DNA from: Nitrospirota bacterium
GTDB taxonomy: Bacteria; Nitrospirota; Thermodesulfovibrionia; Thermodesulfovibrionales; Dissulfurispiraceae
Direction of reading: 5' to 3'
DNA: 63,164 nucleotides
NCBI GenBank assembly: GCA_023476565.1
Contig: JAMCVZ010000027.1
Span: 1 to 63,164 of the forward strand
The position numbers and the translations under genes were made by a program. The notes under the pieces were generated by a model. The model was not told the DNA's origin. It did no database searches and saw only the letters and a list, made by a program, of their open reading frames with translations. This document shows, in pieces, positions 51 through 54,736 of this stretch. Position 1 is the first letter of the stretch; every line of letters starts with the position of its first letter.

Positions 51-125
51 GCGGGCGTAACTCAGCGGTAGAGTGTCAGCTTCCCAAGCTGAAGGTCGCG
101 GGTTCGAATCCCGTCGCCCGCTCCA
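51..125 (+). tRNA. tRNA-Gly (anticodon CCC)
   Basis: Cloverleaf read by eye. The acceptor stem GCGGGCG (51-57) pairs with CGCCCGC (115-121), followed by discriminator T and an encoded CCA (123-125). The anticodon stem TCAGC/GCTGA encloses loop TTCCCAA, giving anticodon CCC (glycine, GGG codon). The T arm GCGGGTTCGAATCCCGT is canonical. The gene is the integration target of the island that follows: its 3' half is repeated at 8429-8475, so the tRNA stays intact after integration. Confidence 0.96.
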
Positions 126-127
126 TT
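81..127. repeat. attL: 47-bp direct repeat in the tRNA-Gly 3' end
   Basis: The segment from the anticodon loop (TTCCCAAGCTG) through CGCCCGCTCCATT is identical to 8429-8475. The two copies diverge at once on both sides (CAGTA here, ACTGC at the other end). This is the usual core footprint of tyrosine recombinases that integrate into tRNA genes. Confidence 0.93.
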
Positions 128-254
128 CAGTATCCCCTTGAAAACAATCAAATAACCGCTAAAATCAATAAGATAATTGCCTCCAGGAACCCCCTTTTGG
201 CGTGGTCGAGAAGCACAGAAAAGGCATGAGAAAGGGTTAAAAAGGGGTAAAACG

Positions 255-303
255 ATGGTAATAAAATGGTAGTGATGGTAATTTTATGGTAGTTTTTATG
301 GTG
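255..303. promoter_or_regulatory. Candidate integrase arm-type sites, five ATGGT(A/G) repeats
   Basis: ATGGTA/ATGGTG hexamers start at 255, 266, 275, 286 and 298, spaced 9-12 bp, close to one helical turn. The same word occurs twice, 11 bp apart, at 8351 and 8362, just inside the other attachment site. Phased short direct repeats flanking both cores resemble the arm-binding sites of lambda-type integrases. Binding is inferred. Confidence 0.5.
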
Positions 304-325
304 ATAAAACCCGTCAAATTTCCCC

Positions 326-1489
326 CTAAAGGAGGGGCAGGATGTCCTTCATTTTCTCCTCGGAAATGTGGGTGTAGCGCATGGTCGTCTCGATGTTGCT
401 GTGGCCGGCCAGGCGCATGACCCTGGGCAGCGGGTCCCCGCACTCGATCCTCCAGGTGATGAAGGTGTGGCGCAGACAGTGGAGGGTGAGGTCGGTCTTC
501 CTGAAGAGCCTGTCGTTATAGGCCGAATCAAATGTAAGCATATTCATTGATGGCTTGCTAACAGAAAACAAGTATCTACTTTTTTTCGGCATTTTCCTGA
601 GTTTTTGTATTATTTTCTCCTGCCAGATGTCATCATCAATATAGATAACCCTGGCTGAATTGGTTTTGGGAATCCACAAATTGTTTTTCAATTTCTCTTC
701 TGTCTCATCAGTAAGTATCTCCTTGGGCTGTATCTTTACCCGGTCGTTCAGTACATCATCGTGGGTAAGATATTTTAATTCCGTCAGGCGAAGTCCACAA
801 AATAGAAAAGTGATTGTAATCTCATAGAAAAGGCCGAATAAGCCGGTCCTCTTCTTTGCCTCTTCCAAAAGGGACTTTACCTCATCGTAGCTGAGAGTCC
901 TGGGGAACCTTACTACCACATCGGGGTATTTTTCGATCAGGGCCACCGGGTTCTGATCGAAGGGGAACTTTTTTTCTTTGATTGCGATGTCGATGATTTG
1001 CCTGATAAGGGAGAGGTATTTATTCTTTGTCCGGTTAGCATGGCCTTTTTCTGCGGCGACCCTTTCCACATAGTCTTTTATTAAATTTTTATATTCCTCG
1101 ATACCGGTGATTGCGACATCCCCGATATCCCTCAGAATCCGCCGGATGGTGGTGATATAGGTCTGGTAGGTAGTATTATTCCAGTGTTTTTTTGCATAAT
1201 TGTCGAACAGGGGGAATAGTTTATTTAAGGTGGGATAAGAGAGGATCGTTTTTTTCAGAAGTCTCTGGGCCTCTTCTCCTACGATTACGCCAGATTTGAG
1301 AGCCCGCAATACGTCCTCATCCTTATGGGACCCCTGCGCGGCCAGTGTTTCAAGCCTTGCCGCTTCCCGGTACAGGTGATGGGCGTTTTCTTTCGTTTTC
1401 CTATATTTCTCTTTCTCAATGGTCTTGTCCGGGAGATACACCTTGTATTTGACGCGCCATCCGCTCGCATGAGCCCCTTCATATGCCAT
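326..1489 (-). CDS. Tyrosine recombinase (island integrase)
   Basis: A 387-residue site-specific recombinase expected to integrate and excise the island at tRNA-Gly. The complete catalytic set is visible: Arg234 (CGLRLTEL), Lys275 (IPKTNSAR), His337 and Arg340 (HCLRHTFIT), His363 (LAGHSNIE) and the nucleophile Tyr372 (MRYTH). The N-terminal ~60 residues look like an arm-binding domain and ~85-180 like the SAM-like core-binding domain. The ATG at 1489 has a GGAG box 7 bases upstream. The gene reads toward the tRNA, the usual layout, and is divergent from the Xis-like gene, with a shared 80-bp promoter region. It appears intact. Confidence 0.95.
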   Translation of the reverse strand: MAYEGAHASGWRVKYKVYLPDKTIEKEKYRKTKENAHHLYREAARLETLAAQGSHKDEDVLRALKSGVIVGEEAQRLLKKTILSYPTLNKLFPLFDNYAKKHWNNTTYQTYITTIRRILRDIGDVAITGIEEYKNLIKDYVERVAAEKGHANRTKNKYLSLIRQIIDIAIKEKKFPFDQNPVALIEKYPDVVVRFPRTLSYDEVKSLLEEAKKRTGLFGLFYEITITFLFCGLRLTELKYLTHDDVLNDRVKIQPKEILTDETEEKLKNNLWIPKTNSARVIYIDDDIWQEKIIQKLRKMPKKSRYLFSVSKPSMNMLTFDSAYNDRLFRKTDLTLHCLRHTFITWRIECGDPLPRVMRLAGHSNIETTMRYTHISEEKMKDILPLL

Positions 1490-1569
1490 GTCATATCTCC
1501 GTAAAAGTGTAGTGTGGGCCGAAATATAATATCTGCAGAATATTAGGAGCAGACAGCGAGGAGGGCGCT

Positions 1570-1797
1570 ATGAGAGTGAGGAGAACGTATACGACCGAAG
1601 AAGTGCACAGGATGACCGGGATGTCGATCTATACCATACGGGTACAGGTAAGGAAAAATGAGTTCCCGGTCATGCCTATCAGCGGGGGAGGGAAGGGGAA
1701 GGATTTTCTCTTCCCCAAGAAAAAGGTCGATGACTGGCTCGACGGAAGGAAAATATATAATCCATATCCTTCTGGTTCAGGACCCAGACATTCCTAA
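1570..1797 (+). CDS. Xis-like helix-turn-helix DNA-binding protein
   Basis: A 75-residue protein with an N-terminal MerR/excisionase-type HTH: RTYTTEEVHRMTGMSIYTIR, then a basic wing ending in FLFPKKKVDDWLDGRK. This is the usual pattern of recombination directionality factors or Alp-like regulators beside tyrosine recombinases. It has a strong GAGGAGGG ribosome site and starts ATG 1570. Divergence from the integrase suggests it controls excision or represses int. The role is inferred from fold and position; a simple transcriptional regulator is the alternative. Confidence 0.75.
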   Translation: MRVRRTYTTEEVHRMTGMSIYTIRVQVRKNEFPVMPISGGGKGKDFLFPKKKVDDWLDGRKIYNPYPSGSGPRHS

Positions 1798-2120
1798 TGC
1801 TATGGAATGACAGCCGAGTAAGGATAATATATACGGGAAGTTGGTAACTGTCACAAATTGGAGCGGCATACGAACGGCTTGAGGTGCACGACTGGAAATC
1901 GTGTGCGGGATAGATATACACGAGGCATATGATCAAAAAACGACTCCAATGATGGCTAGCAGAGTTCCTTATTTTAAAAAGTACTGGATTATTTCAGATA
2001 TTTTTCGATAATATCTATATTGACCGTCTTATAAAGGTAATATTCTGTGAGGGGACGTGGACATTATTATATGGATTAGAATGATAAAAGCTCGATGAAG
2101 CATTCGAAACTCTATTCATA
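1798..2120. other. 323-bp gap between Xis and the methyltransferase operon
   Basis: AT-rich, with no ORF I can support. It holds the tRNA-Ser fragment (1871-1925) and presumably the promoter of the four-gene operon. I see no convincing -35/-10 pair, and the methyltransferase ATG at 2121 has no clear Shine-Dalgarno sequence. Confidence 0.6.
1871..1925 (+). pseudogene. tRNA-Ser(GGA) fragment lacking acceptor and T arms
   Basis: CGAACGGCTTGAGGTGCACG is followed by the anticodon stem CACGA (1887-1891), loop CTGGAAA (anticodon GGA, 1894-1896), TCGTG (1899-1903) and a long variable arm. That is the D-arm-to-variable-loop portion of a class II tRNA-Ser. After CGAGG, where GTTCGAATCCC should follow, the sequence becomes unrelated, and the acceptor stem is missing on both sides. 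It is probably the scar of an earlier integration or recombination at a tRNA-Ser gene. A tRNA-mimicking RNA used by the neighbouring system is a less likely alternative. Confidence 0.7.
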
Positions 2121-3320
2121 ATGCGAAACGGAACATTGAAATTTGCGAGCCTTTTTTCTGGATGTGGAGGGTTTGACCTTGGTTTTATCGCTAGTGGGTT
2201 CAGTTCTTGTGGCGCTTATGACTGTGAGCCTGAGGCGGTTGAGACCTTCTCTGCCAATATTAAAAGTCCTGTTTACAATGTAGATCTCACGGATGGTATC
2301 CCCAACGAGAGATCGCTCTATGGCATTGATGCTCTCATTTCTGGACCGCCCTGCCAAGGGTTCTCAACCGCTGGTAAAAGATTGATTGATGACAAGCGGA
2401 ACGACTTACTCCCACTGACTGGCCAGCTCGCCCGTAGAATTTATCCGAAAGTGCTGGTTGTCGAGAACGTAGCTGGCGCACTGTCCGGTGCGCATGCACG
2501 CTACTGGAACGAGCTGGATACAATGATGCGGCTTGCTGGCTATCGAACACATACCATTCGTTGTCAGGCAACCGATCTCGGAATGGCCCAGCTGAGAAGG
2601 CGGGTCCTGTTCTTTGCGTGGCGAACTTCACGGGATACTGATTTCACATTCCCACATTATCCTGCGGGAAGCCTGCGTACAGTTCTTGCCGGTGTCAGCA
2701 GGCAAAAGAACCATCATCCGAAGCGACTTGATCCAGGCAGCCGAGAATGGCAAATTGCGACACGAATCAAGCCCGGACAGAAGCTTTCCAATGTTCGCGG
2801 AGGCGAAAATGCAGTGGCAACCTGGGATATCCCTGAAGTGTTCGGCGCAATCACCGAAGACGAACGCACTGTCCTTGAACTCTTACGTCGCCTTCGCAGA
2901 CAGGAACGCCAGCGCGACTACGGGGATGCAGACCCCGTCTCTATTCCTCGACTCAAGGCTGCCCTCGGCAACTGCTTTCATCGCCACGTTGAAGTACTCG
3001 TGACGAAAGGCTATCTCAGACGAGTGGAAGGTGGGATTGATCTTGCTGAGACCTTCAATGGAAAGTTCCGGCGACTCTCTTGGCATAAACCAAGCTGCAC
3101 AGTTGATACACGCTTTGGCTCCCCGCGATACTTTCTTCACCCATCGCAACAGAGGGGATTTACGGTTCGTGAGGCGGCTCGAATACAAGGGTTCAGCGAC
3201 AACTATATTTTTCATGGCAACGAAAAAAGCCAATATCGATTGATCGGTAATGCAGTGCCGCCGCCCCTTGCTGCACTAGCCGCTGATTTTGTGAAACGTC
3301 TGCTCGGGAGGGTCTTATGA
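2121..3320 (+). CDS. DNA (cytosine-5) methyltransferase
   Basis: A 399-residue Dcm-type enzyme that transfers methyl from SAM to C5 of cytosine. Ordered motifs are all present: I (LFSGCGGFDLG, ~11-21), IV with catalytic Cys78 (GPPCQGFS), VI (VENVAG, ~114), VIII (QLRRRV, ~157) and X (GNAVP, ~376). The target-recognition region, roughly 185-310, does not reveal the recognised sequence. Its stop overlaps the next start by 4 bp (ATGA at 3317), making it the first gene of a coupled operon. A Vsr gene lies downstream, which fits repair of deaminated methylcytosine. No cognate restriction endonuclease is adjacent, so either it is an orphan or the three coupled genes take the effector role. Confidence 0.96.
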   Translation: MRNGTLKFASLFSGCGGFDLGFIASGFSSCGAYDCEPEAVETFSANIKSPVYNVDLTDGIPNERSLYGIDALISGPPCQGFSTAGKRLIDDKRNDLLPLTGQLARRIYPKVLVVENVAGALSGAHARYWNELDTMMRLAGYRTHTIRCQATDLGMAQLRRRVLFFAWRTSRDTDFTFPHYPAGSLRTVLAGVSRQKNHHPKRLDPGSREWQIATRIKPGQKLSNVRGGENAVATWDIPEVFGAITEDERTVLELLRRLRRQERQRDYGDADPVSIPRLKAALGNCFHRHVEVLVTKGYLRRVEGGIDLAETFNGKFRRLSWHKPSCTVDTRFGSPRYFLHPSQQRGFTVREAARIQGFSDNYIFHGNEKSQYRLIGNAVPPPLAALAADFVKRLLGRVL

Positions 3321-4375
3321 CACTGGACGAACTACGCGACAAAGTTCGGAAATGGGATTTCCAAAGCACCGGGTCGGCGGATTATACAGCACATTATAGT
3401 ACCATTCTTGATCAACTCGACTATCACGCAGTGAGAGACTGGCGTGTTTATTTGCCTGCTGAACACCCTGACTTTCATTCTAACTACATGGAGCGTCTGG
3501 CAGCATGGATCGGCAATCTTACCGATGAGGCCGAGCAGAAGCTCTTTCTAGAATACGCTCTATATATCAGCTTCTTCTCTCATGATGATTTTGTTGCACT
3601 CTACCGTACAGCACTCGACCGGGAAATTAAACGATGGGTGGCCATACAAGTCGGGGCGCGCCTGGAATCTCACGGTGGGCAAGCGTTGCATGAGTTGGTT
3701 CACCGAGAAATACATAACCACACCTGGTTTTGTCCTGTCACCGATAGCATGGATATTAACGAATTTCATAAAGTTAACCATCTCGCAGGCGTTGCCCATC
3801 GCCCTTGTTTTGCATCTGTTCAGATGGAGGCGGAGCACCCAATAAACCCGAATTCTCAGATAGCTGATGATTGGACTCGCTACATGACAAATCCAAGTTC
3901 CCAGCCACTTCATTATGCGTCGCCCTCGCTGAAGCGACTGGTTCTTCTTGAGGATATTGTCGGGTCAGGCACCCAGTGTTTGAACGCTATCCGATGGGCA
4001 GTGGCAAACCTGGATAAGCCTGTCCTGTTTGTTCCGCTCATCCTTTGTCCAAATGGTGTAGAGGCCCTTCGTGCTGAGGAACGGCGATGGAGTGGACGAC
4101 TCAGCGTTCGTCCTGTAATTGAGCTTCGTCGCAACGATCTGCTCGGCCCCGAACGGCAAGGACAGCAAGGTTGGCCAATAGCCGACAAAGTGGAAGACCT
4201 GGCGCAACGTTGCGCATCTCGATCATCTGTCAACATGGATACGTTTGGCTACAAAAACACAGGTTGTTCGTTGGCGACCTTCTCGAATACTCCAGATAAT
4301 ACACTTCCAATTATTCACAACAAACCGAGCGGTGGGGGCTGGGAGCCCCTTTTCCCGAGGGTGTATCGAGACTGA
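3317..4375 (+). CDS. Phosphoribosyltransferase-like (PRTase-CE type) protein
   Basis: A 352-residue protein. Residues 208-220 (LVLLEDIVGSGTQ) match the PRPP-binding loop of type I phosphoribosyltransferases: a hydrophobic strand, an acidic pair, then GSGT. Residues 141-146 (VTDSMD) and a C-terminal PDNTLPII...GWEPLFPR segment resemble, from memory, the PRTase-like domain found in bacterial conflict systems. I recognise no helical partner domain in the N-terminal ~120 residues. Start ATG 3317 overlaps the methyltransferase stop by 4 bp, and the ATPase starts 2 bases after its stop. The likely role is an effector or regulator that binds or consumes a nucleotide or PRPP-like ligand; the activity is inferred. 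A non-catalytic nucleotide sensor is an alternative. Confidence 0.72.
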   Translation: MTLDELRDKVRKWDFQSTGSADYTAHYSTILDQLDYHAVRDWRVYLPAEHPDFHSNYMERLAAWIGNLTDEAEQKLFLEYALYISFFSHDDFVALYRTALDREIKRWVAIQVGARLESHGGQALHELVHREIHNHTWFCPVTDSMDINEFHKVNHLAGVAHRPCFASVQMEAEHPINPNSQIADDWTRYMTNPSSQPLHYASPSLKRLVLLEDIVGSGTQCLNAIRWAVANLDKPVLFVPLILCPNGVEALRAEERRWSGRLSVRPVIELRRNDLLGPERQGQQGWPIADKVEDLAQRCASRSSVNMDTFGYKNTGCSLATFSNTPDNTLPIIHNKPSGGGWEPLFPRVYRD

Positions 4376-4376
4376 C

Positions 4377-6479
4377 ATGAATATTTCAATCAATCCATTT
4401 CAGCAGCTCTACTTTTCTGATGACACACAGACGGAGACTACCTTTGTGGAACTGTTTAGTGCCGAAGTTCTACAGGCGGCTATCCACCCAGTGTTTCAGG
4501 GAGGCAATGTTGTCCTCAGCGGAGCACAGGGTTGTGGGAAGACGATGATCCTGAGCCTTCTCCGGCCTGAGACTCGCATTGCATATTGGCGTCATGGAAG
4601 AGAGTTTCCCGTGAACAAACAAATGCGCAACTTTATCTCCGCGGGAGTGAACCTGACTCGCAGCCGAATTACAGATATAGTTCAAGTTACTTTATATCGA
4701 GGCGATGAGGCCGATGAACGCGAGATGCCGTTCTACTTTGCGGATTTCTTCAACTATTGGGTCGTAGAGGATCTTATTAAGTCGGTTGAAACGATCGGGA
4801 AGAATCCGGAGATATTCGATTCAATCGTGGATCTTAACCGCATTAATATATTCGTAACATATGTTGCAAAGCAGGATTGTTGGTTTGGAGCGCTTGAGGG
4901 GGTTACAAACATCGAGCAGCTGAAGGAGCGCATTGTTAAGCGGGTGGACTTCTATAGACGCTGGGTGAACGGCAATCTTTCCGAGGAGCAGCCTGCCGAT
5001 GAAATTTCCCAAAGCAAGACGAATATTGGTGAGCCAATCGCGAGAACTGCGGAGTGCCTTCGTCAGAGCGGAATGATAAAAGATGATGTGCCTGTTCTGA
5101 TTCGCGTCGATCAGATCGAGGAGATGCACCGTGCCTTCACTGAACGGCAGCGTCGCCTTCTCCTGGCTTTTCGAAAGATGCTCAATCGCGCATTTGCAGC
5201 GAGGGACGCAAGGGTTCATTACAGGGCAGGAACTCGGCGCTATGGATGGAACAACCCGGATTTCCTAGGGATATGGGGCAGTGAGGCGCGTTTGGAGAAA
5301 CGACGTGACTACCATTTGATTGATATGGATGAAGAGCTTTTTGCGTTGGGAGAGGTCAAAAATTCAATTTTCCATAGGTTTTCCATTGATGCATTTCAAA
5401 AACGGGTGGAGTATTATTTCCGCGGTGAAGTCACAAAACTAAAGCCGAAACTCGCCAAATCCATATTTGGCAAACATCCGATTGCGGAAGAAAGACTTGT
5501 GCAGTTAAATCTCAATCCGGATGACAATCAGATTGACCGGGCTCTGGGACTCGATTCAGCAGCTGATGGAGGCACGTGGACGGACGAATGGCGCACATTT
5601 TTTAGGAAGCTATATCGATCTGGGCGCGCAGGCATGCTGGATGCAGTCTTGGCCGCCGCTTGGGGTCGCCAAACCGGAGGGGCGCGATCAAAGCGCCAGC
5701 ATCGGGAATCACCGCCGCCAGCTAATGCCCCATGGAGAGAGCGTAAATGGTGGCGAAAGGAGCACCTTGATCAGGCGGTCCTGCAGCTGATGACCCGCTG
5801 CCAGCAACGATTCATGTGGTGGGGCTACAACGACATCCGGTCACTCAGTGGTGGTAATATCACGGTATTCCTCCATATCTGTCATAGGATCTGGGATAGC
5901 TTTCTCAAGAACGAGTCCAGCCTGGAGCCAAGCAAGCGCACCGATCTTCTGAATGGCGGAACCATAGACTACAACATCCAAGCTGCGGGGATATTGTTCG
6001 CCAGTAATGAATGGTTCAACAAGCTTCCCGAGGAACCCGGTGGCAATGCTAGAAAAAGTTTTGTCGAGAAACTTGGGATGCGGCTAAATGACGATATGAT
6101 GCGTGATTTGAGAATGTCTTATCCCGGTGGTAACGGCATCTCCATTGCATTGACTGAGTTCAACTCTGAAGCGGACGATGTTACGGACCTCCGGAACTCC
6201 ATGCGCGAAGCTGTGGGTTATGGAGTTCTCTTCGCGACTGAACATTCATCGAAGACAAAGTCAGGAGGGCGTAGAATAAAATTCTATTTGAATCCAATTC
6301 TCTGCCCGCGGTTTCAACTTCCGGAAGCGAGGACCAAGGAGCCCTATTATTGGAAGATAGACGAGCTATTTGAACTAATGGATCAGGCGCGGGTAACTCT
6401 GTCCAGGGCACGCAGTCCACGTCAAAAGCCTGCCGAAAACCTTCCACTTTTTCCGGACAGTGATGAGAGGAAATCATGA
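4377..6479 (+). CDS. P-loop ATPase of the island operon (AAA/ORC-like)
   Basis: About 700 residues. Walker A is GAQGCGKT (49-56) and a Walker B-like strand ends in VDQIEE (~244-249), followed by a candidate sensor segment (HYRAGTRRYGW, ~281). The ~400-residue C-terminal part is unassigned, with basic and aromatic stretches such as WRERKWWRKEHLDQ. Most similar in pattern to the ORC/CDC6- or STAND-like ATPases that partner effectors in defence loci. I chose ATG 4377, two bases after the PRTase stop, rather than the in-frame upstream GTG that would overlap it by 130 bp. It overlaps the next gene by 4 bp. The likely role is sensing and switching; there is no nuclease motif I can see. Confidence 0.75.
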   Translation: MNISINPFQQLYFSDDTQTETTFVELFSAEVLQAAIHPVFQGGNVVLSGAQGCGKTMILSLLRPETRIAYWRHGREFPVNKQMRNFISAGVNLTRSRITDIVQVTLYRGDEADEREMPFYFADFFNYWVVEDLIKSVETIGKNPEIFDSIVDLNRINIFVTYVAKQDCWFGALEGVTNIEQLKERIVKRVDFYRRWVNGNLSEEQPADEISQSKTNIGEPIARTAECLRQSGMIKDDVPVLIRVDQIEEMHRAFTERQRRLLLAFRKMLNRAFAARDARVHYRAGTRRYGWNNPDFLGIWGSEARLEKRRDYHLIDMDEELFALGEVKNSIFHRFSIDAFQKRVEYYFRGEVTKLKPKLAKSIFGKHPIAEERLVQLNLNPDDNQIDRALGLDSAADGGTWTDEWRTFFRKLYRSGRAGMLDAVLAAAWGRQTGGARSKRQHRESPPPANAPWRERKWWRKEHLDQAVLQLMTRCQQRFMWWGYNDIRSLSGGNITVFLHICHRIWDSFLKNESSLEPSKRTDLLNGGTIDYNIQAAGILFASNEWFNKLPEEPGGNARKSFVEKLGMRLNDDMMRDLRMSYPGGNGISIALTEFNSEADDVTDLRNSMREAVGYGVLFATEHSSKTKSGGRRIKFYLNPILCPRFQLPEARTKEPYYWKIDELFELMDQARVTLSRARSPRQKPAENLPLFPDSDERKS

Positions 6480-7462
6480 AATACCGTCCTTGGGGACCGG
6501 TTGACTGGGTTCTATCGCTAAGCAGTCCGAAACAGTGGTATTTCTTCGGCACCATTGGAACCGAAGTGCGTTCGCTCTGTAGTTGGACTCAGCTGCGACA
6601 GCGAGGAGTACTCACTGGCGAGTCGTTTGTTCAGATTCAGGATGTTGATTCCATGAAATACAGAGATCGAACACGGCTCGCCCTGAATGATCGTCGGGAA
6701 GAGTATGCCCGGACTGGCGGCGATTTAGCAAAGGTACGCGATATCGAGCTTATGGTAGAAGGCTTTCAGATTGTAGCGCTTGCACGAGAAATTGAAGCAG
6801 CAGGTTCATCCATAGTTTTGGATATAACCTCTTTACCCAAAAGGTTTTTTTTCCCAATCCTCCGAGCCTTGGTGATCAGTGGAACTGTGCAAAATCTTAT
6901 TTTAACTTACACCTCTCCGGATACTTATGCTGATGATGCCCCTCTCTACGAGGATATCGAACCTTGGAAGACATTGCCGGGGTTCGGTGGAGCTAGGACT
7001 AAACCGGAGATGTGGGTCGTTAGTGTTGGTTTTCTTGTCGAAAGTCTGAAGCAGTATGCCGGGGGTAATCCGCATGAGAAAATGAAAATACTGATTCCAT
7101 TCCCTGCACCGCTTGCGGTCCTTCAACGGACATGGCAGTCAGTTGCACGCCTAGAGCAGGGGAACCCTGATGATCGTTTCGAAAAGTATCGGGTCGACAC
7201 GCTCGATATGTCAGCAGCATTCGACCGTATTCTCTCGATTGCCGGCAATCCGCCGAAAACCTTGGCATTTGCACCTTTTGGACCAAAACCAACATCGGCA
7301 GCGATGTGTTTGTATGCACTCCAGAGGGATTCCTCTGTTCACTATCCTCAACCAACTGTTTATCATCCCGAGTACTCGATGGGAATTCGGGGAAATGATC
7401 CTTCTAATGCGGTGAGCGCCTATTGGGTCAAGTACGAAGGTGAGTTCCTTTACAGCGTGTGA
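6476..7462 (+). CDS. Unknown protein, last gene of the coupled operon
   Basis: A 328-residue protein starting at ATG 6476 inside the ATPase stop (4-bp overlap), so translational coupling is likely. I do not recognise a named family. Residues 111-126 (SSIVLDITSLPKRFFF) form a strand-loop-helix resembling the D/N-x-T/S-x(2)-K/R loops of Rossmann-like CARF folds. It is followed by alternating predicted strands (LILTYTSPDTY; MKILIPFPAP) and helices, then a C-terminal region with FGPKPTSAAMCLYAL. It may be a ligand-sensing Rossmannoid subunit. That is inference only; there are no nuclease or membrane signatures. Confidence 0.6.
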   Translation: MKYRPWGPVDWVLSLSSPKQWYFFGTIGTEVRSLCSWTQLRQRGVLTGESFVQIQDVDSMKYRDRTRLALNDRREEYARTGGDLAKVRDIELMVEGFQIVALAREIEAAGSSIVLDITSLPKRFFFPILRALVISGTVQNLILTYTSPDTYADDAPLYEDIEPWKTLPGFGGARTKPEMWVVSVGFLVESLKQYAGGNPHEKMKILIPFPAPLAVLQRTWQSVARLEQGNPDDRFEKYRVDTLDMSAAFDRILSIAGNPPKTLAFAPFGPKPTSAAMCLYALQRDSSVHYPQPTVYHPEYSMGIRGNDPSNAVSAYWVKYEGEFLYSV

Positions 7463-7625
7463 TATATTGACAAAGAGACCGCAGTAAAGACCACCTTCTC
7501 AGGAGTTCACAGTAATCCATACGCAAAGAGGTCTTTTTACATTTATAACTATCGACCATTTTTTGCATTGCGGAGAGAGGGTCAATGCTCATGAAAGGCC
7601 TTTATCTTATTCATTATAATAAAGT

Positions 7626-8087
7626 ATGGAAAGAATACTAAAAGATAAGCTTCCAAACGGACATTTCCAAGATGTACTCCCTGAGCATAAGCGCATTATG
7701 CAAAGTGTGCGAGGGACGGGGAACAAGACGACTGAGGTCCGACTGCGCGGTGCACTAATTAGAGCTGGCATCAGTGGTTGGAAAGTTAATTATTCCTCCG
7801 TAGAGGGGAAGCCTGATATCTTTTTCCCTGGAGAAAAGATAGCCATTTTTGTTGATGGATGTTTCTGGCATGGCTGTCCCAAATGTGGGCATATCCCTAA
7901 AAAAAATACACCATTCTGGAAGACTAAAATAGAACGAAATCGACAGCGCGATAAGAAAGTTACATCTTTGCTGAGGAAGCAAGGAGTATTGGTAATTAGA
8001 TTTTGGGAACATATGTTGGCTCATTCCCTTTCAGGTTGTATCCTGAAATTAGTTGAGCTTATTGAGACCCGCAGGACCACATTATAG
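7626..8087 (+). CDS. vsr: Very-short-patch-repair (Vsr) endonuclease
   Basis: A 153-residue protein that nicks DNA 5' of a T:G mismatch produced by deamination of 5-methylcytosine. Family landmarks are in order: DVLPEHKRIMQSVRGTGNKT plus the following TE near the N-terminus, KPDIFF with the catalytic Asp, FVDGCFWHGCPKCGH with zinc-ligand Cys/His, and NTPFWKTKIERNRQRD. It lies 163 bp after the coupled operon with its own TATAAT box (7615-7620), so it may be transcribed separately. The start could be the ATG at 7626, which has a weak ribosome site; conserved sequence begins by about residue 16. It pairs functionally with the methyltransferase at 2121. Confidence 0.93.
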   Translation: MERILKDKLPNGHFQDVLPEHKRIMQSVRGTGNKTTEVRLRGALIRAGISGWKVNYSSVEGKPDIFFPGEKIAIFVDGCFWHGCPKCGHIPKKNTPFWKTKIERNRQRDKKVTSLLRKQGVLVIRFWEHMLAHSLSGCILKLVELIETRRTTL

Positions 8088-12008: not shown

Positions 12009-12145
12009 ATCCTCAATTCGAAGCACTAAATTCCAAACAGTATCACAAATCTTAATTTCTAATTTTCATATGCACCCCATGTCATAAAAATAACGCGCCC
12101 GATCACACTTTTTAATTCTTTTCGTCAGATAATTGACTCGACAAG

Positions 12146-12250
12146 ACAGTAACGAGTTATCAGTAACGAGTAATACACGGTCCGGAAATGGTAGCTGATA
12201 GAGCATTCAAGAAAAAACGTGCTGCTCTTTATTCTTTACTTGTTACTGTT
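12146..12250. repeat. Word-repeat hairpin (AGTAACGAGT type)
   Basis: Left arm ACAGTAACGAG...CAGTAACGAGTAAT (12146-12173) pairs imperfectly with ATTCTTTACTTGTTACTGTT (12231-12250), with a ~57-bp loop. Intergenic, before the TPR gene. Confidence 0.65.
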
Positions 12251-12320
12251 TTTTGTAGCTGGCATATTTCTTTCATAATAAAATATGGATAATTGTGCAA
12301 TCAGGAGTTTTGGAGAAATT

Positions 12321-22835: not shown

Positions 22836-23345
22836 ATGGGGAAAAATGAAGGTTATAGGTCATGGGTTATGGGTTATGGGACAAGGATATTCTTCGTTTT
22901 TTTGTTTTCTATAACCTATAACCTGTTACCTGTTACCTATTACCTGTCTTCTACTTGCGCCCAGGAGCCGGCTCAGCAGAAGCAGCAGCCGGTAAAGCGG
23001 TCGATGGAGGAGGAACGGTTGAATATTCTGAAGACCGATATCCGGAAAGAGATAGAGCAGTATAAAAAATTGAAGAAGGATATTGACGATGCACAGAAGT
23101 CCCTTGAGGAAAAGAACCGGGAAAAACTTGCAAGGGTTGTGAAGATATTTGAAGCAATGCCCCCGGAAGAGGCCGCCGGAAGAATGGAGAAACTGGATGA
23201 GGACGTCGCCGTGAGCATACTGGCTTCCCTGAAGCCGAAGTCGGCCGGTAAAATACTCGCCCAGATGGAAAGCGAAAAGGCGGCGGTCCTCGCGGAAAAA
23301 ATCCTCGCCAGAGGGAAAGTTTCACAGGAAAAAAATTCCCAATAG
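22836..23345 (+). CDS. YlxF/MotE-like MgtE-N domain protein
   Basis: A 169-residue exported protein: signal peptide/anchor (IFFVFLFSITYNLLPVTYYL), coiled coil (~60-105), then an MgtE-N-like helical domain (FEAMPPEEAAGRMEKLDEDV...SILASLKPKSAGKIL). This matches YlxF of Bacillus (same place between fliJ and fliK) and MotE, a periplasmic motility chaperone. The signal-peptide hydrophobic core is encoded by the right arm of a word-repeat hairpin (22851-22946), so the exact start among several ATGs is uncertain. Confidence 0.8.
   Translation: MGKNEGYRSWVMGYGTRIFFVFLFSITYNLLPVTYYLSSTCAQEPAQQKQQPVKRSMEEERLNILKTDIRKEIEQYKKLKKDIDDAQKSLEEKNREKLARVVKIFEAMPPEEAAGRMEKLDEDVAVSILASLKPKSAGKILAQMESEKAAVLAEKILARGKVSQEKNSQ
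22851..22946. repeat. Word-repeat hairpin (GGTTATAGG/GGTTATGGG type) within ylxF/motE
   Basis: GGTTATAGGTCATGGGTTAT on the left pairs with CTATAACCTATAACCTGTTACC on the right, split here as CTATAACCTATAACC then TGTTACC. It lies wholly inside the coding region and encodes the signal-peptide core. Confidence 0.75.
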
Positions 23346-23363: not shown

Positions 23364-23493
23364 AAAATTCAAATTCTAAATCCGAAGCACTAAATCCTAA
23401 ACAAACACAAATGCTCAAGATACGAAATTCAAGATAGTCTCCATAGCTGGGGTTTGAATTTGTTTAGTATTTGGATATTAGGATTTAGGATTT
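23364..23493. repeat. Word-repeat hairpin (AAATCCTAAATTC type) before fliK
   Basis: AAATTCTAAATCC and TAAATCCTAAACAAAC (23364-23406) pair with GTTTAGTATTTGG and ATTAGGATTTAGGATTT (23451-23493). It ends 10 bp upstream of the fliK sigma54 promoter. Confidence 0.7.
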
Positions 23494-23502
23494 TTATTTT
23501 TT

Positions 23503-27569: not shown

Positions 27570-28067
27570 ATGGCTGAAGAAAGGGATGAAAAACTCGGGG
27601 GCGAGGAGGAACTGCAAGAGCCGAAAAAGAAGAGATCCAAAAATATGCTTCTGATAATAATCATCGCCGCCGCCGTTGTCGTAGGCGGCGCCGGTGCATT
27701 TTACTTCCTCACAAAATCAGGCGGCGATAAATCCCATAAAGCCAAAGGGGAAGCTAAAAAAGAGGATGGAGTTATGTTCGCCCTCGATCCCTTTGTTGTC
27801 AACCTGAGTGATCAAAGCGGGAACAGGTTTTTAAAAGTATCCCTGCAGCTCGAGCTCGCCGGTCCCGCCGTTATGGAGGGCGCAAAGGCAAAGACTCCCC
27901 AGATAAGGGATTCTATTATCACACTGCTTACAAGCAAGACGTCGGATGCCCTTATTTCCCCTGAAGGCAAACTGCAGTTGAAAGATGAAATAAATATTAC
28001 CGCCAACCAGATCCTGGGGAATAATTCAGTAAAAAATGTTTATCTTACCGAATTCGTAATGCAATGA
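27570..28067 (+). CDS. fliL: Flagellar stator-associated protein FliL
   Basis: A 165-residue single-pass inner-membrane protein: charged N-terminus (KKKRSK), membrane segment (MLLIIIIAAAVVVGGAGAFY, ~31-50), then a periplasmic domain with the FliL signature FALDPFVVNLSDQSGNRFLK and a C-terminal NSVKNVYLTEFVMQ. It stabilises stators. GGAGGAGA ribosome site. Confidence 0.95.
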   Translation: MAEERDEKLGGEEELQEPKKKRSKNMLLIIIIAAAVVVGGAGAFYFLTKSGGDKSHKAKGEAKKEDGVMFALDPFVVNLSDQSGNRFLKVSLQLELAGPAVMEGAKAKTPQIRDSIITLLTSKTSDALISPEGKLQLKDEINITANQILGNNSVKNVYLTEFVMQ

Positions 28068-28257
28068 ATCGTGATGCGTAATGTGTAATGAGTAATGGGT
28101 GAAAATGAAAACGCATAAAGATTTAGACGTTTGGAAAAAAGCAATGGAGCTTGCAGAAAGCATATATAGCGTAACTGCAGAATTTCCTAAAGAAGAGCAA
28201 TTTGGACTTACAGCACAAATCAGGCGTGCTGCTGTTTCATTACGCATTACGAGGTAA
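28067..28257. mobile_element. IVS-like hairpin element carrying a truncated four-helix-bundle gene
   Basis: The left arm has GTGATGCGTAATGTG and TAATGAGTAATGGGTG (28070-28101). The right arm has TTCATTACGCATTACGAG (28236-28253). Between them sits the 5' part of an S23-type ORF. The arms are the same words as the hairpins at 31071 and 32971. S23 ORFs are the genes of 23S rRNA intervening sequences, which are themselves hairpin-bounded. The right end GAGG is the fliM ribosome site. Confidence 0.7.
28105..28257 (+). pseudogene. Truncated S23-type four-helix-bundle protein
   Basis: A 50-residue frame beginning MKTHKDLDVWKKAMELAESI and reaching FGLTAQIRRAAVS. This is the conserved N-terminal signature of four-helix-bundle (23S rRNA-intervening-sequence) proteins, normally about 115-130 residues. 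At the point where IPSNIAEG normally follows, the sequence passes into the right hairpin arm (LRITR, stop). The ORF is thus deleted for its last two-thirds and is probably non-functional. It lies between fliL and fliM on the same strand. Confidence 0.8.
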
Positions 28258-28259
28258 TT

Positions 28260-29222
28260 ATGGAAGATATCCTTTCGCAAGATGAAGTCGATGCTCTATT
28301 AAAGGGAATTGCAGAAGGCGAAATAGAAACCGAGAAGCTGGAAGAAGCGTCCGGCGTCAAGGTCTACGATTTTACAGGGCAGGAGAAAATAGTCAGGGGC
28401 AGGATGCCTTCCCTTGATATCGCCAATGAAAGACTCGCCAGAAATTTCCGCCTTTCCCTGTCCGCCGCCATAAGGCATATGGTGGATGTGACCAATGTAA
28501 ACGTCAATATCACAAAGTTTTATGATTTCATGAGGGGGATCCCCTTCCCGTCGAGCATCAACGTATTTAAGATGGAACCACTCAGGGGATTCGGTCTTCT
28601 GGTGTTCGACGCCCCGATGATATTCAGCCTCATCGAGTACTTTTTCGGCGGGACCGGGAAGGGATATTACAAGCCTGAGGGAAGGGAATTTACGCCCATT
28701 GAGCAAAAGATAATCCATAAGGTTGTATTGATGTTCTTCAACGATATGGAAGAGGCGTGGAAGCCGGTCTACCCGATAAAGCCCATCTATGTCCGCTCGG
28801 AGATGAATCCCCAGTTTGTGACAATCGTTACCCCGGTGGATGTCGTCATAAAAGTTGAATTCATTCTTGAAATCGAGGGGAAGCAGTGTAAGGCCTTTCT
28901 CTGCATTCCCTACGGCTCTGTCGAGCCGATTAAAGAAAAGCTGTACAGCGCGTTTTCGGCGGACAGGGATGAACTGGATATCAAATGGCTCGAAAGGCTG
29001 AAAGATTCGCTTAGGGAGACATGGGTGGTCATGCAGGGATTGCTGGGTACGACGAGCCTTACCGTGCAGGAAGTGCTGGAATTGCAGACGGGAGATATCC
29101 TCATCCTCGATAAAAGGGCGGAAGAGGATATTAGTGTTGTCGTCGAGGGCGTACCGAAATTCAAAGGGAAATTCGGCAGTTACAGAGGCGGGCAGGCCCT
29201 GAAAATAACAAAGGTATTATGA
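28260..29222 (+). CDS. fliM: Flagellar motor switch protein FliM
   Basis: 320 residues. N-terminal CheY-P-binding peptide ILSQDEVDALL, CheC-like middle domain (~45-230) and a C-terminal SpoA domain matching FliN (TVQEVLELQTGDILILDK). It receives the CheY signal and controls rotation direction. ATG 28260 behind ACGAGG supplied by the hairpin arm. Confidence 0.97.
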   Translation: MEDILSQDEVDALLKGIAEGEIETEKLEEASGVKVYDFTGQEKIVRGRMPSLDIANERLARNFRLSLSAAIRHMVDVTNVNVNITKFYDFMRGIPFPSSINVFKMEPLRGFGLLVFDAPMIFSLIEYFFGGTGKGYYKPEGREFTPIEQKIIHKVVLMFFNDMEEAWKPVYPIKPIYVRSEMNPQFVTIVTPVDVVIKVEFILEIEGKQCKAFLCIPYGSVEPIKEKLYSAFSADRDELDIKWLERLKDSLRETWVVMQGLLGTTSLTVQEVLELQTGDILILDKRAEEDISVVVEGVPKFKGKFGSYRGGQALKITKVL

Positions 29223-29295: not shown

Positions 29296-29625
29296 ATGGC
29301 AGACGAAGTGAAAAATCTTGATGTGCAGGAATTTAAAAGTGAGGCTCAACCGTCCCAGGCGGTTCAGAGGGACATAAATTTCATCCTTGATGTTCCCCTG
29401 GAAATGACCGTGGTCATCGGCAGTACGAAAATCCTTATCCAGGAGCTCCTGCAGCTTGGACAGGGATCCGTTATCGCCCTCGATAAACTGGCAGGGGAGC
29501 CGATGGAAGTATATGTGAATCATAAACTCATCGGCAGGGGAGAGGTTGTTGTGGTGAATGAGAAGTTCGGGATCAGGCTGACTGATATTATCAGCCCGAC
29601 AGAGCGGGTGAAACAGCTAAAGTGA
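29296..29625 (+). CDS. fliN: Flagellar motor switch protein FliN
   Basis: About 109 residues from ATG 29296, which has GGGAG 8 bases upstream. A longer frame from 29242 has no such site. SpoA domain: ILDVPLEMTVVIGSTKILIQ, then ELLQLGQGSVIALDKLAGEP and IGRGEVVVVNEKFGIRLTDI. FliN forms the base of the C ring with FliM and helps dock FliH. Confidence 0.96.
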   Translation: MADEVKNLDVQEFKSEAQPSQAVQRDINFILDVPLEMTVVIGSTKILIQELLQLGQGSVIALDKLAGEPMEVYVNHKLIGRGEVVVVNEKFGIRLTDIISPTERVKQLK

Positions 29626-29709
29626 TAAGCAGCAGGCAGTCGGTAGCAAAGGGGGTTTAAAAATAAATTATTTCTTCTGCCCTTACTGCTTGCTGCTTAT
29701 TACCGGCCG
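29625..29709. repeat. Word-repeat hairpin (AAGCAGCAGGCAG type) between fliN and fliO
   Basis: ATAAGCAGCAGGCAGTCGGT on the left pairs with TACTGCTTGCTGCTTAT on the right, with CCGGCC beyond. It ends 9 bp upstream of the fliO ribosome site CCGGAGG. Confidence 0.75.
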
Positions 29710-31070: not shown

Positions 31071-31170
31071 ACAGTAATGGGTAATGTGTGATGGGTGATG
31101 AGATAAAGAAATACAAAAGTAGAGTTTTGACTCATTACTCATCACGGATTACGCATTACGCATCACGGAT
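31071..31170. repeat. Word-repeat hairpin (GTAATGGGTGATGAG type) between fliQ and fliR
   Basis: AGTAATGGGTAATGTGTGAT and GGGTGATGAG (31073-31102) pair with CTCATTACTCATCACGG and ATTACGCATTACGCATCACG (31131-31167). One of the clearest examples. Confidence 0.85.
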
Positions 31171-31919: not shown

Positions 31920-32990
31920 ATGGCCGAAGAGTTTGATGAGCGAACGGAACAGGCGACGCCCCGAAGGCGACAGAAGGCCAGGGAAAAGGGTGATGTCCCG
32001 AGGAGTAGAGACCTCACCGGACTTATGCCCTTGTGGGTTGTTACCCTCTATCTCTCTTTCGGGGGCTTTATGCTTACAACTCTGCTCTCTTATTTGAGGG
32101 CGGCGTTGAGAAGGGGCTTCGAGGCGCCTTTGAGTGATACGTCTTTCATTGAGATCTTCAGGGCCGATACCTTTCAGATCGGGATGATGATGGCCCCTCT
32201 TTTTTTATTGATGCTGTTCCTGATCGCCGCTGTCCATTTCCTTCAGACGGGTTTTTTAATTTCTCCTGCTCCGTTGAGCCCGGACATTTCAAAAATAAAC
32301 CCGCTTGAGGGGATCAAGAAATTTATAAGCATCAATACGCTTTTCGAAACGGTAAAGGGTTTCTTTAAAGTTATCGTGCTCGGGCTGATACTTTACTTTA
32401 TTTTGAAAAACGAAGTATTGAAATTGCCCCTTCTCGTGGATATGGACATACAATCCATCATGGGATTTTCTTTCGGCCAGATAAAAAAGCTCCTGATTAT
32501 TTCAGCCACTGTGCTGAGTGTTTTTGCTGTTGCGGATTTTGCATACCAGAGGTGGCAGTTTGAGCGCAACCTGAGGATGACCAAGCAGGAAGTGAAAGAG
32601 GAATACAAAGAGATGGAGGGTGATCCGCGCGTTAAGGCACGGATAAAGAGCTTGCAGAGAGATATGGCCAGGAAGAGAATGATGCAGGAGGTGCCGAAGG
32701 CCGACGTGGTCATAACGAACCCCACGCATTTTGCCGTCGCCCTGAAATATGACTCTGCAAAAATGGGGGCGCCGACCCTGGTCGCAAAGGGAGCAAATCT
32801 TATTGCCGGGAAAATAAAAGAGGTCGCCCGGAAGAGCGGGGTGCCGGTGTTTGAGGATAAACCGCTGGCGCGGACGCTTTATAAGATGGAAATAGGGCAG
32901 GAGATACCGGAACCGCTATACAAGGCCTTGGCGACCATACTCGCCAATGTTTATAAGCTGAAAAAAAAGACCGTGATGCGTAATGGGTAA
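31920..32990 (+). CDS. flhB: Flagellar export switch protein FlhB
   Basis: 356 residues. N-terminal EFDERTEQATPRRRQKAREK, four membrane helices (~30-210), and a cytoplasmic domain with the autocleavage site NPTH (~267-270; VITNPTHFAVALKY). It switches export from hook to filament substrates together with FliK. The last residues (TVMRNG) and stop codon are encoded by the left arm of a word-repeat hairpin. Confidence 0.97.
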   Translation: MAEEFDERTEQATPRRRQKAREKGDVPRSRDLTGLMPLWVVTLYLSFGGFMLTTLLSYLRAALRRGFEAPLSDTSFIEIFRADTFQIGMMMAPLFLLMLFLIAAVHFLQTGFLISPAPLSPDISKINPLEGIKKFISINTLFETVKGFFKVIVLGLILYFILKNEVLKLPLLVDMDIQSIMGFSFGQIKKLLIISATVLSVFAVADFAYQRWQFERNLRMTKQEVKEEYKEMEGDPRVKARIKSLQRDMARKRMMQEVPKADVVITNPTHFAVALKYDSAKMGAPTLVAKGANLIAGKIKEVARKSGVPVFEDKPLARTLYKMEIGQEIPEPLYKALATILANVYKLKKKTVMRNG

Positions 32991-33086
32991 TGAGTAATGG
33001 GTAACAGCAAAAAACATAAGAACTTCTCATGTCTTACGGTCTTATCTTTTGTCCTTTACTCATCACTCATCACTCATTACCCTTTA
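32971..33086. repeat. Word-repeat hairpin (GTAATGAGTAATGGGT type), flhB/flhA junction
   Basis: GTGATGCGTAATGGGTAATG and AGTAATGGGTAAC (32973-33005) pair with TTTACTCATCACTCATCACT and CATTACC (33055-33083). It supplies the flhB stop codon, and TTTACGAGG at its right end is the flhA ribosome site. Confidence 0.85.
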
Positions 33087-33096
33087 CGAGGTTTTC

Positions 33097-53164: not shown

Positions 53165-53838
53165 GCTGCCTCTTCCTTCCCTTTGTATCGTATTCCGGCA
53201 ATAATGAAGGACTCATGGAAAGTATCCGCCGGGCAGTGCTGAAAGAACTGATGAATTCCGTTTCCGATCAGGTAGAGCTGAACGAGATCAGGATAGTGAA
53301 GGGAGCGGACATTATGAAATACGGGGGCGACTACGCGATCAAAGGCCTGAACATGAGCGGTTATAACGGCAGAAACAAGGCGCTTTTCGCGGTGTCGCTC
53401 ACGGACAAAAATGCAGCGACGCGGGAGGTGATCGTTGAGACATCATACGATGTCATGACAAACGCTTTTGTTGCGTCGAGGCCGCTTTCCGTCGGTACGG
53501 TGCTGACAGAGGGAGATTTCTACGAAATAACGCAGAAAAGTGCGAAATTGCCTCCGGGCGCCATAACCGAGAGAAAGGACATTGAAGGAAAGATTTTAAA
53601 AACCAACATCGGACAGGGTATCCTTTTCAAGTCAGGCTATCTGAGCACGACGGCGACCATCAAGAGAGGACAGAAGGTTAACCTTGTGATCGAAGGAGGC
53701 AATGTGGTCATATCGACCAGGGGCCAGCTCAGGAGCGATGCCGTTGTGGGCGGCGAAGCAAGGGTCCTTTGCGATATGTCCAAAAAAGAGGTAAGCGGAA
53801 TATTGGTAGCGCCGAATACGGTGAAGGTGAAAATATGA
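53113..53838 (+). CDS. flgA: P-ring assembly chaperone FlgA
   Basis: 241 residues. Signal peptide (KYACYLLLVICCCLFLPFVS), then a SAF domain and C-terminal beta domain (ASRPLSVGTVLTEGDFYEIT; GQGILFKSGYL; GQKVNLVIEGGNVVISTRGQ). It folds FlgI in the periplasm. AAAGGAGG ribosome site. The stop overlaps the flgH start. Confidence 0.93.
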   Translation: MKKGIFKYACYLLLVICCCLFLPFVSYSGNNEGLMESIRRAVLKELMNSVSDQVELNEIRIVKGADIMKYGGDYAIKGLNMSGYNGRNKALFAVSLTDKNAATREVIVETSYDVMTNAFVASRPLSVGTVLTEGDFYEITQKSAKLPPGAITERKDIEGKILKTNIGQGILFKSGYLSTTATIKRGQKVNLVIEGGNVVISTRGQLRSDAVVGGEARVLCDMSKKEVSGILVAPNTVKVKI

Positions 53839-54596
53839 AGAACAGTAACGAGTTGATAGTAACGAGTGACGAGCTAAAGAATAAAGAGGAAACCGGAAAC
53901 CTGTTGCGCATTTTTTTACTTTTTACTTTTTACTTTTTACTCGTTGCTGTCTTTACGGGTTGTACCGGTCTGAAAGAGGCCAGAGAAATAAAGACGGCGC
54001 CCATGCCGCCCAAATACTTCGAGACGAAGGAAAAGGAGAGGTACGCTTCGGAAGGCTCCCTCTGGATGGAAAGGGCATCGCTTTACGAAGATCGAAAGGC
54101 CCGGAGGGTAAACGACCTCCTGACTATCCTGATAACCGAGAGATCGACGGCATCAAAAAAGGCTTCCACGAATACCGACCGTGATTCATCGGGCAATTAC
54201 ACGGTGGCGAACGCCCTGGGCATGCAGGTCGACAACTTCCCCATGCTCAACGACCTGAACAAGGGATTCAAGGGAAGCGGGACCTCGAAGTTCAAGGGAA
54301 ACGGAGATACTACGCGGGAAGGGAAGCTGACCGCGACGATAACAGCTAAGGTGATGGAGGTCCTCCCCAATTCCAATCTGGTGATCGAATCGAGGAAAGA
54401 GGTCATCGTGAACAACGAAAAGGAGATCATCGTGTTGAGAGGGATCGTGAGGCCGGATGATATCCTGCCGAACAACACCATCCTCTCCCAGAACGTGGCG
54501 GACGCCCAGATATACCTTGTAGGTGACGGCGTCCTGGATGACAAGCAATCGCAGGGATGGCTTGTAAGACTCCTGGATAAGGTATGGCCGTTCTAA
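53835..54596 (+). CDS. flgH: Flagellar L-ring lipoprotein FlgH
   Basis: About 253 residues. Long N-terminal extension before a lipoprotein signal (IFLLFTFYFLLVAVFTGC, lipobox Cys near residue 45), then the L-ring signature SLYEDRKARRVNDLLTILIT and a C-terminal YLVGDGVLDDKQSQGWLVRL. Its extension and signal are encoded by a word-repeat hairpin (53841-53951). Presence means an outer membrane. ATGA overlap with flgA. Confidence 0.93.
   Translation: MKNSNELIVTSDELKNKEETGNLLRIFLLFTFYFLLVAVFTGCTGLKEAREIKTAPMPPKYFETKEKERYASEGSLWMERASLYEDRKARRVNDLLTILITERSTASKKASTNTDRDSSGNYTVANALGMQVDNFPMLNDLNKGFKGSGTSKFKGNGDTTREGKLTATITAKVMEVLPNSNLVIESRKEVIVNNEKEIIVLRGIVRPDDILPNNTILSQNVADAQIYLVGDGVLDDKQSQGWLVRLLDKVWPF
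53841..53951. repeat. Word-repeat hairpin (AGTAACGAGTGACGAG type) in the flgH 5' end
   Basis: AACAGTAACGAGTTGATAGT and AACGAGTGACGAGC on the left pair with TTTTTACTCGTTGCTGTC on the right (53934-53951). It is all within coding sequence. Confidence 0.7.
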
Positions 54597-54736
54597 TTAC
54601 CGTAATGCGTGATGAGTAAAGGGTATAGAAGATTAAAACAGGAGAAAATAATGAGAGATAAAGTGCAAACTGTAACCACCGTCTTTCTGACCGTTATTTT
54701 CTCACTTGTAACTCTTCACGCATCACGCATCACGGC
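54597..54736. repeat. Word-repeat hairpin running into the flgI signal peptide
   Basis: TTACCGTAATGCGTGATGAG on the left pairs with CTCTTCACGCATCACGCATC on the right (54711-54730). The right arm encodes residues of the flgI signal region (TLHASRITA). Confidence 0.75.

Follow-up and report, generated by a model that had tools for sequence, protein, structure and literature searches.

An internally deleted S23 element between fliL and fliM of a Nitrospirota bacterium and the word arms of its relatives

Judging from alignment with a congeneric genome, the gap between fliL and fliM in the 63,164-nt stretch of DNA analysed here (the window) is occupied by an internally deleted S23 element, which is intact at the same site in the congener. 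We consider it probable that the locus represents a decayed minimal mobile element, composed of one S23 (four-helix bundle) gene and two convergent arrays of short words, in which the S23 protein would bind its own words following the logic of REP/RAYT systems.

The fliL–fliM locus and its intact allele

The gap between fliL and fliM measures 192 nt in the window, and both host genes are intact: fliL upstream (27570–28067, + strand; PF03748, E 4e-27) and fliM downstream (28260–29222, + strand; PF02154, E 5e-60). A 5' arm of about four GTRATGN words occupies positions 28069–28099 of the + strand; its letters, GTGATGC-GTAATGT-GTAATGA-GTAATG (28071–28097, + strand), end right before the S23 start codon. 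The arm was identified from the sequence and by pattern scan, and the same arm is found in the congener (G001; the window genome is G000). It is followed by the 5' part of the S23 gene (134 nt, 28105–28238, + strand), recognized by PF05635 and by comparison with G001. The fragment matches positions 1–41 of the 106 positions of the PF05635 profile (23S_rRNA_IVP) with 59 bits, the cut-off being 33.8 (E 6e-16). The S23 frame keeps its first 45 codons and breaks at 28238, the start of the right arm. This 3' arm (28238–28251, − strand; sequence, pattern scan and comparison with G001), CATTACGCATTACG, corresponds to the two outermost right-arm words in G001. The residual ORF of 50 aa (28105–28257, + strand) begins MKTHKDLDVWKKAMELAESIYSVTAEFPKEEQFGLTAQIRRAAVS and its stop codon lies 2 nt 5' of the fliM ATG. 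In the window as a whole, GTAATGNGTAATG has 30 matches with at most two mismatches, versus 3.6 expected (maximum of 10 in 100 shuffles).

In G001, the fliL–fliM gap of about 437 nt contains a complete S23 gene of 118 aa (TIGR02436, 119 bits, cut-off 24), with the left arm seen in the window and a right arm that is longer. Both the window fragment and the congener's gene thus score above the curated cut-offs of the family profiles (PF05635, TIGR02436; structure 2gsc), and the window gene is a member of the S23 family. The window copy equals the G001 allele minus 244 nt, which are lost from codon 45 of S23 into the inner right arm; the deletion junction is at 28236–28240, with a 2-nt overlap (TC) at the ends. 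The remaining 134 nt of the gene differ from G001 at five positions, four of them synonymous. The preliminary description of this DNA had noticed, from its letters alone, that arms enclose the start of an S23 gene between fliL and fliM and that the gene is truncated exactly at the right arm; the profile match and the congener's allele bear out both observations.

The fliL–fliM gap was readable in 14 other relatives belonging to 12 genera, where it measures 9–116 nt and holds neither S23 nor GTAATG arms; hairpins built of other words are present in this gap in G003, G013 and G017. Two species, those of G000 and G001, stand for the genus in this comparison, and the genomes of the order are drafts. 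Since the allele is intact in G001 and both S23 and GTAATG arms are missing from the 14 relatives, the S23 element most likely entered fliL–fliM in the lineage of the genus and then decayed in the window species. No match above the gathering score was found in Rfam near the fliL–fliM site, and a PADLOC search gave no match.

Word arms of S23 genes

Our order-level sample comprised 78 S23 loci. Arms were called with a simple local-alignment score by comparing the 130 nt 5' of the gene with the 200 nt 3' of it, and p ≤ 0.01 was counted as inverted arms. Shuffles, displaced windows and ordinary genes served as controls; flanks of different loci were unsuitable because they have words in common. 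Inverted arms of tandem 6–9-nt words were detected (p ≤ 0.01) at 64 of the 74 S23 genes of the order scoring at least 50 bits, versus one of 70 windows displaced 600 nt outward and two of 185 ordinary genes of 90–180 aa. Across phyla, arms were present at 56 of the 80 S23 loci among the matches listed in GTDB genomes, which were picked by protein motif alone and are biased to one conserved peptide; none of 68 controls had arms. These loci cover Bacteroidota, Proteobacteria, Acidobacteria, Planctomycetes, cyanobacteria, Firmicutes, Patescibacteria and others. Arms were likewise seen at 30 of 36 S23 loci in IMG/VR contigs and at five of eight in cyanobacterial plasmids; S23 was not found in phage records. 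The expectation, formulated before this analysis, that S23 genes elsewhere would be flanked by arms is thus borne out in the order and among the listed matches from other phyla, and S23 genes consistently lacking arms were not encountered.

The period of the words among 127 S23 loci is 7 nt in 97, 8 nt in 22, 6 nt in five and 9 nt in three; the median arm has 4.6 words, and the 5' arms are poor in C (12% vs 23%). The sampled S23 genes sit between protein genes, mostly along operons, and point in the direction of their neighbours in 88 of the 93 loci with parallel neighbours (88:5). The dN/dS of S23 lies between 0.05 and 0.25 in the pairs for which it could be estimated, and one further pair shows no amino-acid change; by this measure the gene is under purifying selection.

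Arm words were more alike between S23 genes of at least 65% aa identity at unrelated sites (0.193) than in permuted pairs (0.065; maximum of 500 permutations, 0.123). Word sharing among S23 copies of one genome is 0.075, versus 0.065 between different genomes. As far as these comparisons indicate, the arm word goes with the S23 lineage and not with the genome. Some S23 pairs of about 70–75% identity carry different words, so that word turnover seems faster than that of the protein. Since the S23 copies within one genome are mostly unrelated, there is no sign that the S23 form itself has been amplified. In G005, two S23 copies have genes that are 99% identical and arms that are clearly different. 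Some S23 elements (L039 and L085 in G005, L057 in G017) lie beside or between CRISPR-like repeats.

The best PDB match of S23 is 2gsc, which has five chains (E 8e-27), and S23 also distantly matches Avd, a protein of diversity-generating retroelements (DGRs). The only other PF05635 match in the window genome, on contig C9, adjoins a reverse transcriptase; considered as an arm-less S23 gene, it was rejected as being the Avd of a DGR, and it therefore has no bearing on the arm rule, for or against. The region concerned (G000 C9:41294–44596, L002) contains Avd, the reverse transcriptase and near-identical repeats resembling the template and variable repeats of a DGR.

Filled sites, empty sites and dispersed hairpins

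Orthologous sites with and without the element were found not only at fliL–fliM (G001 versus the 14 relatives) but also among cyanobacterial plasmids. On a Calothrix brevissima plasmid, the space from an integrase gene to the following ATG is filled by an S23 element whose arms consist of GGGTGTA words; Nostoc carneum, Tolypothrix and Aulosira have 3 nt at this place, between flanks that are 90–92% identical. About 12 nt were replaced on insertion at this ‘int’ site, which was examined for target duplication and showed none. The second site lies behind a traM-like gene, where Nostoc C052 and N. edaphicum have an S23 element flanked by GGGAACA words and Nostoc C057 (94%) lacks one. At the traM-like site of Nostoc ATCC 53789 there is a hairpin of words that lacks S23 and whose left junction matches that of the filled copies; it is likely a second deletion form. 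The third filled/empty plasmid site lies between nrdB and nrdA. The flanks of these filled/empty plasmid pairs are 90–95% identical and the arms are missing wherever S23 is missing; on this evidence, arms and S23 gene arrive together at the plasmid sites.

An element with GTAACGA arms stands upstream of a pilQ-like gene in G001 and is absent from G000, where other sequence replaces it; the event at this site was therefore not a clean insertion. The right arm of this intact S23 element (L033:1720–1900, G001 C104) appears to encode the pilQ-like signal peptide (MKLVARRWFLVTCYLLLVTCYF...), and the signal peptide of the pilQ-like gene of G000 is unrelated to that of G001. Between fliN and fliO, G000 has an S23-less hairpin and G001 has none. 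The location of S23 genes along operons and their presence or absence at orthologous sites speak for the proposal in the preliminary description that they form a mobile family able to enter operons.

The window genome contains 22 GTAATGN hairpins, all with GTAATG first and CATTAC last; they are short, dispersed and have inverted-repeat ends, as MITEs do, and S23 sequence is present only in the fliL–fliM one. S23-less hairpins in the window include one before fliR (31074–31166), which is shared with G001, one at the flhB–flhA junction (32973–33087) and one between flgH and flgI (54600–54735), whose right arm encodes part of the FlgI leader. In G001, the loop of the pre-fliR GTAATG hairpin contains another word hairpin (L153:9860–9990). 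Signal peptides or leaders are encoded by word hairpins in FlgH (53769–53960), FlgI (54600–54735) and the ORF after fliJ (22836–22948); the C/T-rich right arm of such hairpins translates as a hydrophobic stretch, and G000 and G001 have different words and lengths in their FlgH and FlgI leaders. Other words (GTAACGA, GTGATAAGCAGCAGGCAGT, AAATCCTAAA) make up inverted repeats in the window at 12143–12252, 29622–29703 and 23364–23500, which indicates several word families in one chromosome. The window also holds, at 51–8087, a tRNA-Gly followed by integrase-like, cytosine methyltransferase-like and Vsr-like endonuclease ORFs, probably an integrated element with restriction–modification cargo.

The preliminary description regarded the word hairpins of this chromosome as relatives or deleted forms of S23 elements. 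For the fliL–fliM copy this is supported by the G001 allele; the other hairpins contain no S23 remnant, and searches for dispersed words succeeded cleanly for one word, were mixed for another and failed in part for the third. The word GGTGAAGN is abundant (5–58 hits) in four genomes, precisely those with this word in their S23 arms, and has 0–3 hits elsewhere; the dispersal of GCTATCA compared with matching S23 gave a mixed result; and AGAGCAGN had no hits in two of its four carriers and 13–116 hits in seven genomes that have no S23 to match. The idea that dispersed words prove a cognate S23 was consequently dropped. Hairpin density showed no difference between sampled genomes with and without S23, in a small sample and with a strict detector that recovers three of at least six known hairpins.

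Mechanism, alternatives and significance

In REP/RAYT systems, one gene is flanked by inverted short repeats that are also dispersed as gene-less hairpins. The same arrangement is seen with S23: a short repeat flanks it in inverted orientation and recurs, without the gene, in dispersed hairpins. The two differ in that S23 is a helical bundle without a known catalytic domain and not a Y1 transposase, and in that its repeat is an array of 6–9-nt words varying by S23 lineage; an S23 gene takes the place of the Y1 transposase that is linked to the repeat in REP/RAYT systems. The likeness is one of logic, with S23 replacing the transposase, and not of membership. The S23 protein, homologous to a pentamer and to Avd, which handles nucleic acids, may bind the words repeated in its own arms, perhaps with each subunit taking roughly one word, a ratio guessed from 2gsc and the length of the arms. 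Word binding would pair both ends of the element, and host repair, replication or some nuclease might then copy or move it; copies consisting of arms only would be non-autonomous or decayed forms. The fact that S23 has no known catalytic domain or nuclease counts against this explanation.

The S23 (four-helix bundle) family was named after the intervening sequences (IVSs) of 23S rRNA in which it was found, known from Coxiella, Leptospira and Salmonella. A study of the Coxiella IVS views S23 as an element of rRNA, with mobility as a hypothesis only, and the sporadic distribution of IVSs suggests horizontal transfer (PMC4990558). The fliL–fliM element could thus be imagined as an IVS-like RNA element, the arms of which form a stem cut by RNase III so that the S23 segment is excised from the operon mRNA as it is from 23S rRNA; such excision would explain why the element is tolerated in operons. 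The Coxiella IVS is indeed an S23 ORF with complementary ends that is excised by RNase III (PMC4990558), complementary terminal sequences surround the S23 ORF here too, and S23 lies along the transcript (88:5). However, the window element is located between fliL and fliM and not within a 23S rRNA gene, and a scan of the surroundings of S23 genes for 23S rRNA motifs yielded nothing convincing, with one lone 13-mer in L033. Arms of the window type are, moreover, tandem words in which conservation of a stem is not seen. In the 22 hairpins of the window genome, the word varies at positions 3 and 7, and these positions pair between the arms about at chance (position 3, 0.31 vs 0.45 expected; position 7, 0.45 vs 0.38); over the 127 S23 loci, G.U (249) is not commoner than A.C (269), so there is no wobble excess. 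Selection for a stem was set aside given this lack of covariation and of wobble excess. The RNA fold of the whole fliL–fliM segment is unexceptional (z = −1.5), and ‘convergent word arrays’ therefore describes the locus better than ‘hairpin’. Chance-level pairing together with the lack of G.U excess makes the arms resemble a single binding site present in two convergent copies; what seems to be kept is the word and not the stem. The stress that the preliminary description laid on the hairpin was accordingly probably wrong, as the arms bear no sign of upkeep for base pairing, and we consider the IVS-like reading unlikely.

Telomerase adds short G-rich repeats to 3' ends. By analogy, S23 might assist a reverse transcriptase as Avd does, with the arms copied from an RNA template; addition from a template at both 3' ends of a break would yield convergent arrays. 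Such a retroelement is suggested by the distant relationship of S23 to Avd, by the nature of the arrays (short tandem words, C-poor on the inward strand and always convergent) and by near-identical copies that differ in word number at one site. However, the S23 element has neither template and variable repeats nor a reverse transcriptase, in which it differs from DGRs, and reverse transcriptase (PF00078) is absent from 21 of the 33 S23-carrying genomes, including G043, which is 99% complete and has six S23 loci. Nor do the variable word positions fit adenine mutagenesis: DGR-like adenine-directed mutagenesis of the arms was hinted at by the two G005 copies and contradicted by the word columns. 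We regard this scenario as very improbable.

The same holds for ordinary MITEs or REPs moved by Y1 (RAYT/IS200) transposases with S23 as a passenger. In its favour are the dispersal of the hairpins and the frequency of Y1 genes, which 38 of 60 genomes possess (nine genes in the window genome), but Y1 is missing from eight of the 33 S23 carriers, five of which also lack reverse transcriptase, so that neither enzyme can be an obligatory partner of S23. Words that vary by locus and track the S23 lineage, purifying selection on S23 and the lack of target duplication at the plasmid ‘int’ site also argue against a passenger.

Short tandem repeats comparable to the S23 arms have been reported as degenerate intergenic 7-nt words: TAACTGA in Beggiatoaceae (MacGregor 2015, PMC4679880) and GGGAATC in Xanthomonas, with 70–75 convergent pairs per genome (Rehm 2015, PMC4692102). 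The S23 arms are also degenerate tandem 7-nt words in convergent pairs; the published repeats were described as regulatory or G-quadruplex repeats. Although these heptamers are on record without a mobile gene, it is hardly credible that the arrays are simple repeats made by slippage, or a host regulatory code, with S23 there by chance, because arms accompany 64 of 74 S23 genes versus two of 185 control genes, show one polarity throughout and arrive together with the gene. The terms S23 and ‘four helix’ are absent from both papers (PMC4679880, PMC4692102), and a literature search outside subscription journals and preprints found no publication joining S23 with word repeats. The sampled S23 genes, located between protein genes, carry word arms that the literature found on the family does not describe.

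S23 genes are small, widespread and without known function. The reading that we prefer, a mobile element whose S23 protein binds its own words, can be extended, tentatively and with less confidence than we place in the window locus itself. S23 and its word arrays might form a class of their own, a transposase-free one-gene mobile element spread over many phyla, in which an oligomer reads the words and protein and word co-diverge; the 6–9-nt repeats of Beggiatoa, Xanthomonas, cyanobacteria and others might then be its dispersed or decayed ends. The elements supply signal peptides and stop codons to adjoining genes. The fliL–fliM alleles of G000 and G001, together with the named plasmid pairs, provide material for experiments. 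The data give a gene and a candidate binding site to short tandem repeats that were reported without a mechanism, and tie a puzzling gene family to the 7-letter repeats scattered in many bacterial genomes.
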